A stretch of DNA of 23,871 nt from a virus. The stretch covers positions 1 to 23,871 of IMG/VR virus record IMGVR_UViG_3300025450_000123; one strand, written 5' to 3'. The notes beneath the pieces are model-generated. The model did no database searches, was not told the DNA's origin, and was given only the letters and a program-made list of their open reading frames with translations. Position numbers and translations under genes: made by a program. Positions 4,278 through 20,329 of the stretch are shown here, piece after piece. Position 1 is the stretch's first letter, and each line of letters starts with the position of its first letter.

Positions 4278-4499
4278 TTACATAAATTGTATGTTGTATT
4301 TGGTGTGACATGAGTGACAAATAATCTCAATAAACTTGCTTCCTGGCTCATAAACGTCATAGTTTGATGGTCCATGATTAGATATTACTAAGTTCTTTGA
4401 CGAGTATTTAAACAAAGCTCTGTTGCATTTGTCGCACCTCTTTAAATATATTTCGTGGTTCTCTACTACATTGTGATATAGATACATTGTTACTATCAT
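4278..4499 (-). CDS. Com-like zinc-ribbon protein (73 aa)
   Basis: Two CxxC pairs are visible, RCDKCNRALF and IICHSCHTKY, about 40 residues apart. This resembles Com, the phage Mu translational activator of mom, which has the pattern RCxxCxKLL...IKCPRC; the likeness is in the zinc-ribbon layout. The ATG at 4499 overlaps the TerL stop (TAATG) with SD GGAG 8 nt upstream; a GTG at 4508 is in frame but less well placed. RNA or DNA binding is inferred. No mom-like target gene is visible here, so the function may differ. Confidence 0.65.
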   Translation of the reverse strand: MIVTMYLYHNVVENHEIYLKRCDKCNRALFKYSSKNLVISNHGPSNYDVYEPGSKFIEIICHSCHTKYNIQFM

Positions 4500-6312: not shown

Positions 6313-6444
6313 TTACTCTAAGTAAGCTTCTATTATGGTTTCTAGTAGTTTAGTTACACTTAGTCCTATTCTTGCTGATTCTTTCTTTAGTTCTTCTAAT
6401 TGATATTTATCTATGTTTACTTTGGTTAATCTTGTACTTGGCAT
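6313..6444 (-). CDS. Ribbon-helix-helix protein (43 aa), possible repressor
   Basis: Reads MPSTRLTKVNIDKYQLEEL, then ESARIGLSVTKLLETIIE. This is one beta strand (RLTKVNID), a helix, a Gly/Ser turn and a second helix, the Arc/CopG/MetJ-type fold at its usual minimal size. Such proteins bind short palindromes as dimers. The ATG directly follows the stop of the upstream gene. A perfect 12-bp palindrome sits in the promoter (6959-6987) that should drive this operon, so autoregulation is an attractive inference. Confidence 0.65.
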   Translation of the reverse strand: MPSTRLTKVNIDKYQLEELKKESARIGLSVTKLLETIIEAYLE

Positions 6445-6588
6445 TTAGTTTCCCAACTTCTTTAATATTTCTATACAACTGTTTAAATCATCTGTGTAAT
6501 TCATAAGGTAGGTTTCCCTAGCCTGATACTCTCTAAGTATTTCGGCTAAGAAGTCTATCTCTGTGTATGTAAGCTTTATGTTTCTCAC
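6445..6588 (-). CDS. Hypothetical small protein with GTG start (47 aa)
   Basis: The GTG start overlaps the TGA stop of the preceding gene and the frame runs to a TAA that abuts the next ATG. It reads RNIKLTYTEIDFLAEILREY at the start and IEILKKLGN at the end, a helical protein. No family is recognised. Tight coupling on both sides is the main support. Confidence 0.6.
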   Translation of the reverse strand: MRNIKLTYTEIDFLAEILREYQARETYLMNYTDDLNSCIEILKKLGN

Positions 6589-6923
6589 TTAACTCTCCAT
6601 GTAACGTATTCAGTTTCTTTAGCTTCTACGTTCTTAGGTAGGTTACCTGTAAGCTTAACAAAGTGTCCTACTTTAGTTGTGTCTAGTACTTCTTTCTTAA
6701 ACTCGCTAGGTATGAATGCTAGGTCACCTGAGTAGCTAGTTCTTTTAGCTAGTGAGATAGTGTAGTAATCGTTCTTAATACTAACTATGTTGTATTGTTT
6801 CATAGCTTGTAATAGTTCAGCTTTAGCTTCTGCTTCATATCGCTCAAGCTCTTTTCTTAATTCTATTGCTGTGTGTAGTTTTTGTTCTACTTCAGCTGGT
6901 ACTTTAAATTCTGTTAATGTCAT
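6585..6923 (-). CDS. Hypothetical early protein (112 aa)
   Basis: The N-terminal half is a helix rich in Glu/Lys/Ala (residues about 5-45). The C-terminal half looks beta-rich, with IVSIKNDYYTISLAKRTSYSG and a strand-like end VTWRVK. Proteins of this shape are common in phage early regions, but no function is recognised. It is the first gene after a strong promoter (6959-6987). Its SD lies in the 5' arm of a small GAAACG-loop hairpin abutting the ATG, which may modulate translation. Confidence 0.75.
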   Translation of the reverse strand: MTLTEFKVPAEVEQKLHTAIELRKELERYEAEAKAELLQAMKQYNIVSIKNDYYTISLAKRTSYSGDLAFIPSEFKKEVLDTTKVGHFVKLTGNLPKNVEAKETEYVTWRVK

Positions 6924-6937
6924 AAGGCGTTTCCCTT
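6924..6937 (-). promoter_or_regulatory. Leader hairpin with GAAACG loop, overlapping the SD
   Basis: The minus strand reads AAGG-GAAACG-CCTT immediately before the ATG at 6923. The loop GAAACG is identical in hairpins at 12778-12793 and 13806-13817, while the stems differ but keep pairing. The SD (AAGGG) is in the stem. Confidence 0.5.
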
Positions 6938-6958
6938 GTTTAATTTGTTAATACTTAA

Positions 6959-8814: not shown

Positions 8815-9030
8815 TTATTCCTTTACCAAGCTTTCTATTCCGCTATCAATGTAACCTTTCTTATAGCTTTCTGTTTGCACTTCTTCTATAAGTTGTTTAA
8901 TAGCTTCCTTAGCTTCCGTTCCAGCTTTCGTAAAAACACTTCCATTATTATTATTTTTACTATGCACATCTATTTCAGCTTTATTAAAAAAATTTACAAG
9001 TATCTCATCTATCTTTTCATCTAAGTTCAT
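8815..9030 (-). CDS. Hypothetical helical protein (71 aa)
   Basis: Begins MNLDEKIDEILVNFF and ends SYKKGYIDSGIESLVKE; mostly helical. The frame is open much further upstream, but only because the adjoining hexamer repeat has no stops in this frame. The ATG at 9030 has AAAGGA 10 nt upstream and is the credible start. Its first codons are duplicated at 9720-9746, on the far side of the DUF6948/Gly-X pair. No family is recognised. Confidence 0.7.
   Translation of the reverse strand: MNLDEKIDEILVNFFNKAEIDVHSKNNNNGSVFTKAGTEAKEAIKQLIEEVQTESYKKGYIDSGIESLVKE
9008..9030 (-). repeat. Direct repeat, copy 1 (start of 71-aa gene)
   Basis: The first 18 nt are identical to the copy ending at 9746, then two mismatches in the next several bases. 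Together the copies bracket the DUF6948/Gly-X gene pair. Confidence 0.75.
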
Positions 9031-9037
9031 AGTAATG

Positions 9038-9337
9038 CTATCCTTTTCTTGTGCCAAAGCCAGAGCCAAAGCCATCGCCATCGCCATCGCCAGAGCCATC
9101 GCCAAAGCCATAGCCATCGCCAGAGCCAGAGCCATGGCCAAAGCCAAAGCCATGGCCAGAGCCATCGCCATCGCCATAGCCAGAGCCAAAGCCATAGCCA
9201 TCGCCATCGCCAGAGCCAGAGCCATGGCCAAAGCCAAAGCCATAGCCATCGCCAGAGCCAAAGCCATCGCCATCGCCATCGCCATAGCCAGAGCCAGATG
9301 ATTTACCTTTTATAGCTTCTTTAGTTAAACTAACCAT
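9038..9337 (-). CDS. Gly-X dipeptide repeat protein (99 aa)
   Basis: A unique N-terminus, MVSLTKEAIKGKSS, is followed by 40 consecutive Gly-X pairs, where X is only Ser, Asp, Tyr, Phe or His, and a short tail TRKG. The ATG has AAGGTG about 9 nt upstream and overlaps the end of the DUF6948-like gene, so the pair is co-translated. Every Gly in the array is GGC and every X codon ends in T. All other frames over the array are also open, on both strands, but none has its own start signal and unique N-terminus. Low-complexity Gly-aromatic-acidic repeats could form fibres or condensates; the function is unknown. I recall similar repeat genes beside DUF6948-type genes in other phages. Confidence 0.75.
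   Translation of the reverse strand: MVSLTKEAIKGKSSGSGYGDGDGDGFGSGDGYGFGFGHGSGSGDGDGYGFGSGYGDGDGSGHGFGFGHGSGSGDGYGFGDGSGDGDGDGFGSGFGTRKG
9053..9297 (-). repeat. Hexanucleotide tandem array, 40 units of GGC-NNT
   Basis: Units differ only at the first two bases of the second codon (TC, GA, TA, TT, CA). Higher-order repeats are visible: the X order F-F-H-S-S-D occurs at units 10-15 and 25-30, and D-D-D-F-S at 3-7 and 35-39. This points to segmental duplication. Expected to be length-variable between isolates. Confidence 0.9.
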
Positions 9338-13787: not shown

Positions 13788-13805
13788 ACTTATGTCAATA
13801 AAAGA

Positions 13806-13817
13806 AAGGAAACGCTT
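13806..13817 (+). promoter_or_regulatory. Leader hairpin with GAAACG loop, overlapping the SD
   Basis: AAG-GAAACG-CTT just before the ATG at 13820; only 3 bp of stem. Third copy of the GAAACG element in an early leader. Confidence 0.4.
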
Positions 13818-13819
13818 AA

Positions 13820-14011
13820 ATGACAAAAAAAGAACCTAAGGTATACGAAACAAGTAAATTAAACATACCTAAGATACTTGCATATATTGCATTGGTAATA
13901 TGTGCCATTATTGGTATTAAAACGCTTCTAAACAGTCGTAATGAGGCCGTAGCATATGTATTTTCAGTAATCATAACGCTCTTAATAGTTCACACTATCC
14001 TAAATGAGTGA
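13820..14011 (+). CDS. Two-pass membrane protein (63 aa)
   Basis: Polar N-terminus MTKKEPKVYETSKLNIPK, hydrophobic segments at about residues 19-36 and 45-61, and a short loop between (LLNSRNEAVA). SD AAAGGA is embedded in the GAAACG hairpin. An early membrane protein could act in superinfection exclusion, but there is no homology evidence. Confidence 0.7.
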   Translation: MTKKEPKVYETSKLNIPKILAYIALVICAIIGIKTLLNSRNEAVAYVFSVIITLLIVHTILNE

Positions 14012-14069
14012 TATAGCCTTTTTTCTAGTAGCTTTGATTTGGCTAGTATCAAAGTTCACAAAACGATAA
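14004..14069 (+). CDS. Possible 21-aa hydrophobic peptide
   Basis: Reads MSDIAFFLVALIWLVSKFTK, then R and stop. The start overlaps the end of the 63-aa gene; there is no SD, so expression would need coupling. Confidence 0.35.
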   Translation: MSDIAFFLVALIWLVSKFTKR

Positions 14070-14070
14070 A

Positions 14071-14079
14071 TGTTATAAT
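14071..14079 (+). promoter_or_regulatory. Extended -10 promoter upstream of the 43-aa gene
   Basis: TGT-TATAAT (14071-14079), no good -35. The predicted start near 14086 gives a leader of about 35 nt carrying the SD and hairpin. Confidence 0.45.
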
Positions 14080-14093
14080 AGTAATGTTCAAAA

Positions 14094-14120
14094 GGAGAAC
14101 AGTGCTTTTAAAGCACACCC
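14094..14120 (+). promoter_or_regulatory. Split ribosome binding site bridged by a hairpin
   Basis: SD GGAG (14094-14097) is 23 nt from the ATG at 14121, too far to work directly. The near-perfect palindrome GTGCTTTTAAAGCAC (14102-14116) lies between; folding it leaves AACA plus ACCC, an effective spacing of 8 nt. Phage T4 gene 25 is a known case of this design. Confidence 0.55.
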
Positions 14121-14252
14121 ATGAAAACAATATATAACGTAGTCGGAGCAGTATTGGGCATCCAATTTGCTATAACTACTAAACAATATGATTCGATTGA
14201 TTTCAAACTATACTACGAAGCTTTACCATCAGAGAAACAATTTAGACGTTAG
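14121..14252 (+). CDS. Hypothetical protein with hairpin-bridged RBS (43 aa)
   Basis: Begins MKTIYNVVGAVLGIQFAITT and ends ALPSEKQFRR. The N-terminus is mildly hydrophobic. It overlaps the end of the convergent metallophosphoesterase gene by 11 nt. No family is recognised. A competing reading is an 11-aa GTG-started peptide at 14102 using the same SD. Confidence 0.5.
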   Translation: MKTIYNVVGAVLGIQFAITTKQYDSIDFKLYYEALPSEKQFRR

Positions 14253-15534
14253 GAATATACAATTTACCATTAAATCGGGTTTCATATCCGTTATGGGTCT
14301 GTATAGTTATTTGCTGTGTGTCAAATGGAGCATCGCCTTCTTGGTAATACACAGCTCCTAGCCCTTGTTGCCAGTTTTCCCAGGCTTGGACAGGCATATC
14401 GGTCATTTCATCAACTCCAGAGCCATAAGAAGGTACAGCACCGTCTATGCGTGCTAGACAGCCAAATGATTGAGCTATGATAAACCTAGCACCTGAATAG
14501 TTGTGTGCAGTCCTTGCTGCGTACTCGTGTCTGTGAACGTGTCCAAATAAGGTAGAAGTTTCTTCATCTTTTACTATAGCGGCTGCTGTCTTACCAGCTG
14601 GTCGGACAACGTGTCCATGTATAGCTTTTAATCTTTGGTTAATCCAATATTCATTCGCTGGATACCCAGAACGATATTCACAATCTACATCTGCTAAGTT
14701 AAGTAAGAAAGGAATGGTAAGAACTCTCTCAGTAGTGCCTGCTTGTCGCACTCCGTAAAGCTTCTCAGCGTATTGCATGATGTACTTGCTGAGTCGTAAT
14801 TCATGATTGCCTGCCAAATATACAATTTTAGTGTCTGGAGCATTAGCTCTAATTTGAGCAAGAAATTGATGCACATAATCTAGAGTTGCATTCAAAGTTT
14901 GTCCAAAGCTACTTTCTTGTGCATACCTACCAAATTGAGGAAGGTCTAGGTTATCTCCATTTAATATTACTTGGTCTGGTTTAGTATCTTTAATAATTTG
15001 AAGAGCAATGTCTAATGCTTTTGTATCGTGAAGTGGGTCAAGAGTACCGTCCTCGTAGCGTCTAAAACCTGCTTGTATATCTGGTAAAACTATAGCTAAT
15101 TTCTCGTTAGAAACCTTCTTGTTTGATTTAGTTGGTCGAATAATAACTGGTTTGGCTTGGGATATGAACATATCCTCAGTCAGGTCAGTAGGCTTTGGTA
15201 CATATTGAACGCTTACAAGGTCAGCTGTTTCAAACTCACCTTCTTCATTTTTCATGTATCCTTGATAAAGGTTTACTCTGTTTATTTTTAAAATATCGTT
15301 AGGGTCTATCCCACTACGCTCGAATAATTCAGCCAACTTATCTGTTTGAGGATTTCTTTTTTCTGGATTTCTTTCCATCTCTAATACCTTTCTAGCTTTA
15401 GCCTTGTATTTATTTCGAGTACGTCTTAATCCATCCCAATCAAGCCAATAGTAATATCGCTTTAATTCCTCATTACCCATTGTAAGAAGGCGTTTTAAAT
15501 CTTTGCCCTCCCATTTCACCTTATAAGGCTGCAT
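14242..15534 (-). CDS. Calcineurin-like metallophosphoesterase (430 aa)
   Basis: Metal-ligand motifs appear in order: PDIQ (residues 151-154; the usual DxH is DxQ here), GDNLD (193-197), GNHE (242-245), HGH (306-308) and GHVHR (331-335). Such enzymes hydrolyse phosphodiesters with a two-metal centre; phage members may be DNA nucleases or cyclic-nucleotide or RNA-end phosphatases, and the substrate cannot be told. About 140 N-terminal residues, basic and helical, precede the catalytic domain and may bind nucleic acid. AAAGGG is only 3-4 nt before the ATG. It is the last gene of the lysis operon. Confidence 0.85.
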   Translation of the reverse strand: MQPYKVKWEGKDLKRLLTMGNEELKRYYYWLDWDGLRRTRNKYKAKARKVLEMERNPEKRNPQTDKLAELFERSGIDPNDILKINRVNLYQGYMKNEEGEFETADLVSVQYVPKPTDLTEDMFISQAKPVIIRPTKSNKKVSNEKLAIVLPDIQAGFRRYEDGTLDPLHDTKALDIALQIIKDTKPDQVILNGDNLDLPQFGRYAQESSFGQTLNATLDYVHQFLAQIRANAPDTKIVYLAGNHELRLSKYIMQYAEKLYGVRQAGTTERVLTIPFLLNLADVDCEYRSGYPANEYWINQRLKAIHGHVVRPAGKTAAAIVKDEETSTLFGHVHRHEYAARTAHNYSGARFIIAQSFGCLARIDGAVPSYGSGVDEMTDMPVQAWENWQQGLGAVYYQEGDAPFDTQQITIQTHNGYETRFNGKLYIPNV

Positions 15535-18522: not shown

Positions 18523-18528
18523 GTGGAT

Positions 18529-18783
18529 ATGAACAATCTGATACCAATCAATGATTGTGTTCTCGTTGAATTAACCGATGTATATGCGTATGCTGCAACA
18601 CCAGACAAACAATATGCAACAAAAACAAGCGGCAATGTTTTAGCTGTTTGTAAAGAAGAACACGAATATCTTTTGAATAAAAAAATCTTTTTTGATGAAT
18701 ACAAAGATGGAACACAAGTTTCTGTAGACAATAGAACATTCTCGTTTATTAAATTTGAAGAAATAAAAGGATATTATGAGTAA
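18529..18783 (+). CDS. groES: GroES-like co-chaperonin (84 aa)
   Basis: The N-terminus NLIPINDCVLVEL matches the first strand of GroES (IRPLHDRVIVKR). Later parts fit the barrel: TSGNVLAV (compare TRGEVLAVG), KKIFFDEYKDGTQVSVDN and the end FIKFEEIKGYYE. The mobile-loop region reads VYAYAATPDKQYATK and lacks the usual GGIVL tripeptide that docks on GroEL, so docking may be specialised for its own partner. The ATG at 18529 fits the leaderless promoter; a GTG at 18523 is also in frame. groEL starts inside its last codons. Confidence 0.78.
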   Translation: MNNLIPINDCVLVELTDVYAYAATPDKQYATKTSGNVLAVCKEEHEYLLNKKIFFDEYKDGTQVSVDNRTFSFIKFEEIKGYYE

Positions 18784-20329
18784 ACTCAGCAGAGATATAT
18801 GGATTGGTAAAGAATTTGAAGAGAAATTAGATTTAGGAGTAGAAAAGGTTTATCAAGTAGCTAATGCTGCTTACGGTCCAAGTGCAGGTATTGCAATTGT
18901 GGAAAAGAACTTTGGTGCTCCAAACGCTTCCAGAGATGGTGTAACTAATGTAAAGAAAGTATTTCTTGAAGACCCTGTGCAAAACATGGCAGCTAGGATT
19001 ATTGTTGAAGCTAGTGAAAAATCTAATAAGGTCGTGGGAGATGGTACTACAGCTGTAGTTATTCTTTCCTATCATTTATACAAAGAAGCTAAGAAGCTTA
19101 TCAGTGGTGGACACAACAGAATGGTTGTCGCACGAATGCTTAAAGATGCTGCAGATGAAATTCTAACTCAAATTGATGGTGCTAAAGTAAAAGCTACTGA
19201 AGATTTAGTTCGTTCAGTCGCTAAAGTATCTGCTAGTGATGAAGCTCTTGGAGAACTTATAGCTGATGTTATAGAACGAGTTGGTGTTGAATCAAATATC
19301 CTAGTGGAAAAGTTTGATGGAATTGGTTGTTATGATGAAGAAGTTAAAGGTCTTTACTTTAAAAAAGGATTTACTAACGAGTATTTAATCAATAACTTTA
19401 CAGCTCTTGAATCTGAAGTAAGAAACGCTGATATATTTATCACAAAGAAAACACTTAGAACTGCTGCAGATGTTACCCCAATTATAGACAAAATTTGTAT
19501 TGCAGGTGGTAGAGGTAAAGAAATTGTAATTATTGGTGAGATAGTTGAAGAAGCTCTAGCAACTCTTGCTCTTAACAAAGCTAAGGATATTATTTACACA
19601 ACTCTTGTAGACGTTCCTGTATACGGTCCTATGCGTTCCTTATTCTTAGAAGACATCGCTGCTTACACTGGCGGTAAAGCTTTAGAAGAAGGTGCTCCAT
19701 CTAATACTTTTGATGTATCAATGTTAGGTGGTGCTGAATCTGTTAAAGTGACCTCAAACTCAACTTCTATAATAGGTGGTGAAGGTGCTGATGAAGATGT
19801 ACAAGCAAGAATAGATGACCTTAGGAAACAATTTAAAGAAGCTGAAAGCTTAGTAGATAAGGAAGAAATCAAAAAAAGACTATCTGCTCTAACAGGTAAG
19901 ATAGCTATTATACGAGTCGGTGCTGCTACTGAATCAGAGCGAGATGAAATAAAAGACAGAGTTGATGATGCTATCTCTGCTACTCAAGCTGCTATACGAG
20001 ATGGTGTTGTTCCTGGTGGTGGTGTATGTTTAGCTAGAACACATTCTAAGGACTTCTCAGGGGCATTTGAAGCTCCATTTAAGACATTAGTCAACAATGC
20101 TGGTTATAATGCTGATGAAGCGTTATTTAAAGTCAAAGAAAGTAAAGAATGGTATGGGTTTGATTTACGCCACTATTCAAACGAAACTGTTAATTTGCTA
20201 TCTGCTGGGATTGTTGACCCAGCTGAAGTTACCAAACAAACTGTAATAAATGCAATCAGTGTAGTTACAACTCTTATCACCTCTACAGTAGGGCTAACAT
20301 TTAAAGACAGGACAATGAAGAGTGATTAG
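18776..20329 (+). CDS. groEL: GroEL-like chaperonin (517 aa)
   Basis: Full-length HSP60 with key ATPase residues: YGPSAG (33-38), FGAPNASRDGV (46-56, Asp54 = GroEL Asp52), GDGTT (88-92, Asp89 = GroEL Asp87), DRVDDAISATQAA (394-406, Asp398) and DGVVPGGGV (409-417). The apical domain is diverged (DVPVYGPMRSLFLEDIAAYT where GroEL has KAPGFGDRR). The Gly-Gly-Met tail is absent, explaining 517 rather than about 548 aa. It folds proteins in the host cytoplasm, and phage copies (for example Pseudomonas phage EL) are thought to serve virion proteins. SD AAAGGA lies 4 nt before the ATG. Confidence 0.95.
   Translation: MSKLSRDIWIGKEFEEKLDLGVEKVYQVANAAYGPSAGIAIVEKNFGAPNASRDGVTNVKKVFLEDPVQNMAARIIVEASEKSNKVVGDGTTAVVILSYHLYKEAKKLISGGHNRMVVARMLKDAADEILTQIDGAKVKATEDLVRSVAKVSASDEALGELIADVIERVGVESNILVEKFDGIGCYDEEVKGLYFKKGFTNEYLINNFTALESEVRNADIFITKKTLRTAADVTPIIDKICIAGGRGKEIVIIGEIVEEALATLALNKAKDIIYTTLVDVPVYGPMRSLFLEDIAAYTGGKALEEGAPSNTFDVSMLGGAESVKVTSNSTSIIGGEGADEDVQARIDDLRKQFKEAESLVDKEEIKKRLSALTGKIAIIRVGAATESERDEIKDRVDDAISATQAAIRDGVVPGGGVCLARTHSKDFSGAFEAPFKTLVNNAGYNADEALFKVKESKEWYGFDLRHYSNETVNLLSAGIVDPAEVTKQTVINAISVVTTLITSTVGLTFKDRTMKSD

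Follow-up and report, generated by a model that had tools for sequence, protein, structure and literature searches.

In bacteriophage T4, the Shine-Dalgarno (SD) sequences of genes 25 and 38 lie too far from the start codon, and an intervening structure shortens the SD-AUG distance from 27 to 11 nt in gene 25 and from 22 to 5 nt in gene 38 (PMC3014915). The same source describes mutation, reporter and probing experiments in which the structure raises translation, and it reports conservation among close T-even phages; for the T4 split sites it cites Nivinskas 1999 and Malys and Nivinskas 2009 (PMC3014915). The Escherichia coli thrS leader is reported to be a further split site, in which a hairpin, still folded, is accommodated by the ribosome with a single-stranded binding segment on either side (PMC3936740). 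As described there, ribosome binding to thrS requires a 24-nt single-stranded domain beyond the hairpin, whereas in the locus reported here it is the SD that occupies this position. The original prediction for this locus was a split site in front of a 43-aa gene, and the gene 25 precedent that it invoked is on record as given above.

The DNA analyzed here (the window) is a 23.9-kb virus record with genes for a terminase, a portal-sized protein, an endolysin, a metallophosphoesterase (MPE) and a phage GroEL. No DNA similarity to deposited phages was found. The MPE gene adjoining the hairpin locus is present in 12 IMG/VR contigs (72-85% protein identity), and a terminase scan of bacterial genomes gave one match, the unclassified MAG contig L199. 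The nearest deposited phage sequence shares about 34% identity with the GroEL gene (18776-20329; PHROG 5725), and L094 shares 78%; the 86-aa frame that precedes this gene (18523-18783) is likely its translational neighbor. A long low-complexity stretch (8815-9337) encodes (MA)n/(LA)n or GDGDGSG repeats depending on the frame. A second recurrent leader, AAAGG(G/GT)AAACGC(C/CTT) followed by the start codon, stands before unrelated small genes of this phage group (window 13794-13822 and 6923-6945, L200 8818, and L201 1273).

Features of the hairpin locus are listed in Table 1. From 14094 to 14120 the leader consists of GGAG, AACA, the palindrome GTGCTTTTAAAGCAC (14102-14116) and ACCC, and the ATG follows directly. 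GGAG is 23 nt from the ATG, and with the hairpin folded out 4 + 4 = 8 nt are left. The distance, palindrome and folded spacing are thus just as originally predicted, and the predicted 43-aa ORF is present.

Table 1. Features of the window at the 43-aa gene.
Feature	Position	Strand	Basis
Extended -10 promoter element TGTTATAAT (TGNTATAAT)	14071..14079	+	Sequence; recurs in relatives
SD core GGAG (inside AAAAGGAGA)	14094..14097	+	Sequence; anti-SD duplex energy
Candidate bridging hairpin GTGCTT-TTA-AAGCAC, 6 bp, -4.8 kcal/mol	14102..14116	+	Folding; compensatory changes among relatives
11-codon GTG frame overlapping the 43-aa gene start, judged incidental	14102..14137	+	Not conserved as a frame in relatives
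43-aa gene: hydrophobic N-terminus and common C-terminal motif SIDFKLYYEALPSEKQFRR	14121..14252	+	ORF list; homologs

No nearer SD precedes the ATG in the window leader, and the anti-SD duplex energy is -8.7 kcal/mol for the distal segment vs. -0.1 kcal/mol in the 16 nt adjoining the ATG. Among the 33 window genes examined, a strong SD core (AGGAG) at 23 nt is unique to the 43-aa gene, and most other SD-bearing genes have the SD 4-10 nt from the start. Transcription is predicted to begin about 7 nt downstream of the extended -10. The window stem has 6 bp and a 3-nt loop, and a stem this long in the spacer has a probability of about 0.004 in mononucleotide shuffles and about 0.03 in dinucleotide shuffles. 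The 77-nt leader folds no better than its own shuffles (z-score -0.88). Because the hairpin by itself is only mildly unusual, comparison with relatives was needed. Rfam covariance models gave no match in 13900-14300. A second hairpin, TGTTC...GAACA, closes over the window SD. At -1.0 to -2.6 kcal/mol this hairpin is weak, as is its counterpart in L002.

Relatives were collected from IMG/VR by protein homology (neighboring gene, tblastn and motif searches), independently of the hairpin. The short genes have in common the C-terminal motif xFxLYYExxxS...RR/KK, which occurs as IDFKLYYEALPSEKQFRR in the window, VSYKLYYEPLESESKY in L002, IKFTLYYEDVKLDPYRRKHYKKP in L003/L004, EGFVLRYEKLESEPKIHR in L006, IDFELYFEDVKLSGWRKKAYKKP in L007, ESFVLYFEKLESEPKVRRK in L010, IDFKLYFEDIEFSGWRKKVYKKK in L013 and IEFKLYYEEMNLSASRKKLYKKP in L201. 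L002 also has the neighboring 63-aa and HNH genes of the window. A profile of the nine members then known found nine records at E < 1e-6, with weak members at two further places, and wider searches (135-aa gene, MPE alignment, glycosyltransferase-like gene) added one leader, L201. The 43-aa gene had no match in PHROGs or Pfam. Judged by sequence comparison, it is a real gene with relatives. In L007 and L013 only the start after the hairpin fits the conserved protein, and the upstream ATG directly meets TAG. On contig G005 (L198, L007) the LYYE-motif gene occurs twice, once behind a hairpin leader and once inside a longer membrane-anchored frame.

The leaders follow a common plan: the extended -10 (TGNTATAAT), 12-15 nt, the SD (AGGAG, AAGGA or AAGGG), 4-6 nt, the hairpin, 2-5 nt (6 nt in L006 and L010), and the start codon. 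Seven of the first eight leaders (window, L002, L003, L004, L007, L013 and L006) carry TGNTATAAT at an equal distance to the SD; L010 has TATAAT without the TG, and L201 has a degenerate TGGGACAAT. In seven leaders the SD is 22-25 nt from the start unfolded and 8-11 nt folded (8, 9, 8, 8, 8 and 11 nt in six of them, plus 11 nt in L201). Across the relatives, L006 and L010 included, the SD-to-start distance is 21-25 nt. Anti-SD pairing is stronger distally than beside the start in nine of nine leaders; in the window and its relatives the SD lies beyond functional range and no proximal SD is present. In seven leaders a stable hairpin stands wholly between SD and start, and the folded spacing falls in the range of about 5-11 nt expected for split sites of the T4 type; L006 and L010 show this arrangement weakly. 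In the predicted folds of L002 and L201, part of the SD is engaged in other pairing. A search of viral contigs with the exact leader pattern gave no match, and the pattern TATAAT-N-AAGGAATCNATG gave 91 stretches, in which the only members were those already known and one L007 copy.

Compensatory changes show that the predicted hairpin is conserved among relatives of the 43-aa gene. The seven leaders have six different stem sequences: GTGCT/AGCAC (window), GAGTC/GACTC (L002), GAAGC/GCTTC (L003 and L012), GGTGT/ACACC (L004), GTAGC/GCTAC (L007 and L013) and GGTAG/CTACC (L201). All 30 of 30 pairs are Watson-Crick, while column shuffles gave a mean of 14.3 and a maximum of 26 paired, and 0 of 20,000 reached 30. 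A formal pair count was made on the subset of five 14-nt hairpins (A6): 100% of pairs were kept, four of the five pairs had changed on both sides, no one-sided changes occurred, and sliding the pairing by 1-3 columns always collapsed it. Stem energies lie between -4.4 and -5.3 kcal/mol in the strong-stem leaders, and the loops, rich in U, resemble one another in part (UUCG, UUUG, UUUA, AUUAA and UUUAA). Pairing is thus conserved among same-gene relatives, the check that the original prediction had proposed: the six stems are unrelated to one another and the pairs are intact.

L003 and L004 provide a natural stem swap. These two contigs are 98.6% identical over 6.2 kb, and within the 560 nt from 6371 to 6930 (L003 numbering) they differ only at seven hairpin bases: three pairs, each compensated in full, and a single base of the loop. 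At L003 6549-6560 and its L004 counterpart, 7 of 12 bases are replaced within the hairpin. The peptide readable through the hairpin differs (MKLWLR in L003 vs. MVFRHR in L004), and pairing is retained. As a comparison of sequences, this swap is the strongest single piece of evidence for a selected RNA structure, as opposed to a selected sequence or encoded peptide.

The architecture appears to be specific to this gene family. Twelve contigs of the phage group were scanned at 4,369 start codons, each followed by an open frame of 24 codons or more, with a stem of at least 5 bp. The SD-hairpin-start arrangement occurred at eight loci, seven of which belong to the 43-aa gene family, and the eighth is an internal codon in a long repetitive frame; the decoy-triplet rate was 0.115%. 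A covariance model run over 0.86 Mb found no further convincing instance. Relatives that keep the distance and lack the stem had been named in advance as evidence against the original prediction; two weak-stem cases aside, none of the relatives lacking the stem keeps the strong arrangement. Homologs read from another gene's message (L008, L072, L197 and L198) have neither the stem nor the distant SD, in agreement with it. In L006 (to which L005 and L011 are identical) and in L010, a distance of 21-23 nt is combined with only a 3-bp GGC/GCC stem (-2.1 and -3.1 kcal/mol), and their start codon is uncertain (TTG or the preceding ATT). They are a partial exception to stem conservation.

Like T4 genes 25 and 38, the window locus has an SD that is too distant, a hairpin between SD and start, a short folded spacing, and conservation among close relatives; on sequence grounds it has every feature expected of a split site of that type. 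Unlike the T4 sites, where mutation and probing were used, the case here is made by comparison. The phage lineage and gene are unrelated to those of T4, the gene has its own extended -10 promoter, the leader is about 35-40 nt long, and relatives differ by wholesale replacement of the stem sequence. Within the open literature that was searched, the lineage of the phage, the family of the gene and the hypervariability of the stem are new.

The 43-aa gene probably has a split ribosome binding site bridged by the hairpin. Comparison among same-gene relatives shows the distant SD, the missing proximal SD, the predicted hairpin and its compensatory conservation, and by analogy with T4 genes 25 and 38 it is quite likely that the hairpin acts by bridging. 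In the proposed mechanism, the extended -10 promoter would yield a short leader, the 30S subunit would bind the SD at 14094-14097, and the intervening 15 nt would fold into the hairpin and stay folded. This would leave about 8 nt between the SD and the ATG at 14121, where the 43-aa gene would initiate. We infer that the hairpin is accommodated by the ribosome in its folded state and that breaking the stem would lower translation. The stem may also have been diversified rather than merely kept, through selection for new stem sequences on top of the bridging role, although we regard this as rather unlikely. Between L003 and L004, which are otherwise identical around it, the stem is exchanged nearly as a unit while its stability stays at about -5 kcal/mol. 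On this reading a new stem sequence would be favored, for example to evade a pairing RNA or RNA-binding factor or to be specific for one.

An unlikely alternative to bridging is that the hairpin is a regulatory target, bound by a protein of the phage or the host, or by an antisense RNA, so as to repress or time the gene, the SD distance being secondary. The U-rich, partly alike loops and the nearly constant stem length are consistent with this, and the L003/L004 stem was replaced nearly as a block, as specificity determinants sometimes are. However, conservation of the stem sequence is nil, and a regulatory target leaves unexplained why a proximal SD is missing in nine of nine leaders and why the spacing after folding invariably comes to 8-11 nt. 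A regulator recognizing the U-rich loop is possible.

Initiation at a foot start codon, meaning an ATG or GTG at the base of the stem (in the window, GTG 14102), giving either a leader or mini-ORF coupled to the downstream gene or the true N-terminus, is more doubtful still. Such a codon lies 4 nt past the SD in six of nine leaders (window, L003, L004, L007, L013 and L201) and shares the frame of the gene in three of them (L003, L004 and L201), but it is missing from L002, L006 and L010, and its spacing to the SD is short. The AUG-UAG of L007 and L013, between SD and hairpin, is similar to two-codon minigenes with an effect on the gene downstream, such as the AUG-stop just upstream of the gene in the axe-txe leader (PMC8708949). 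The abstract of that report describes no stem bridging, and the AUG-stop is absent from the window and most relatives. Frame and product of the foot start vary everywhere while pairing is perfectly kept: the product has 11 codons and is out of frame in the window, has two codons in L007/L013, and differs between L003 and L004 as given above. A start at GTG 14102 was the other outcome named as counting against the original prediction, and the sequence offers it little: its only frame is the 11-codon one overlapping the ATG, with an ATG-stop as its counterpart in L007 and L013. The foot start codon is best seen as a by-product of a stem beginning with G, and it may have a minor mini-ORF role.

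It is highly improbable that the palindrome serves as a DNA operator or as an intrinsic terminator for the minus-strand gene that converges on the locus (14242-15534). The scan listed a minus-strand terminator-like site, for which the SD complement supplies the T-rich tail, but of the GC-rich stem, U-run and gene end in relatives that mark an intrinsic terminator only this minus-strand T-rich stretch is present. In L003, L004, L007 and L013 the stem is kept although the downstream neighbor is co-directional with the cassette and leaves no convergent transcript to end. An operator should be conserved in sequence, whereas the stem sequence varies, and the asymmetric 4-nt loops look RNA-like. A chance palindrome within a non-gene, for which the window palindrome taken alone would leave room, is barely conceivable given the compensatory changes and the protein motif common to independent contigs. 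The terminator, operator and chance readings are contradicted by the relatives and were rejected.

Hairpin-bridged split sites have been described for few genes (T4 25 and 38, with thrS related). The bridged site proposed for the 43-aa gene would add an independent example found in nature, from uncultivated phages, for which the compensatory evidence is clean. Its natural stem variants, with L003/L004 close to a natural stem swap, could be used to measure what the ribosome tolerates between SD and start. Start-site callers with a fixed SD spacing can misplace tiny genes of this kind.
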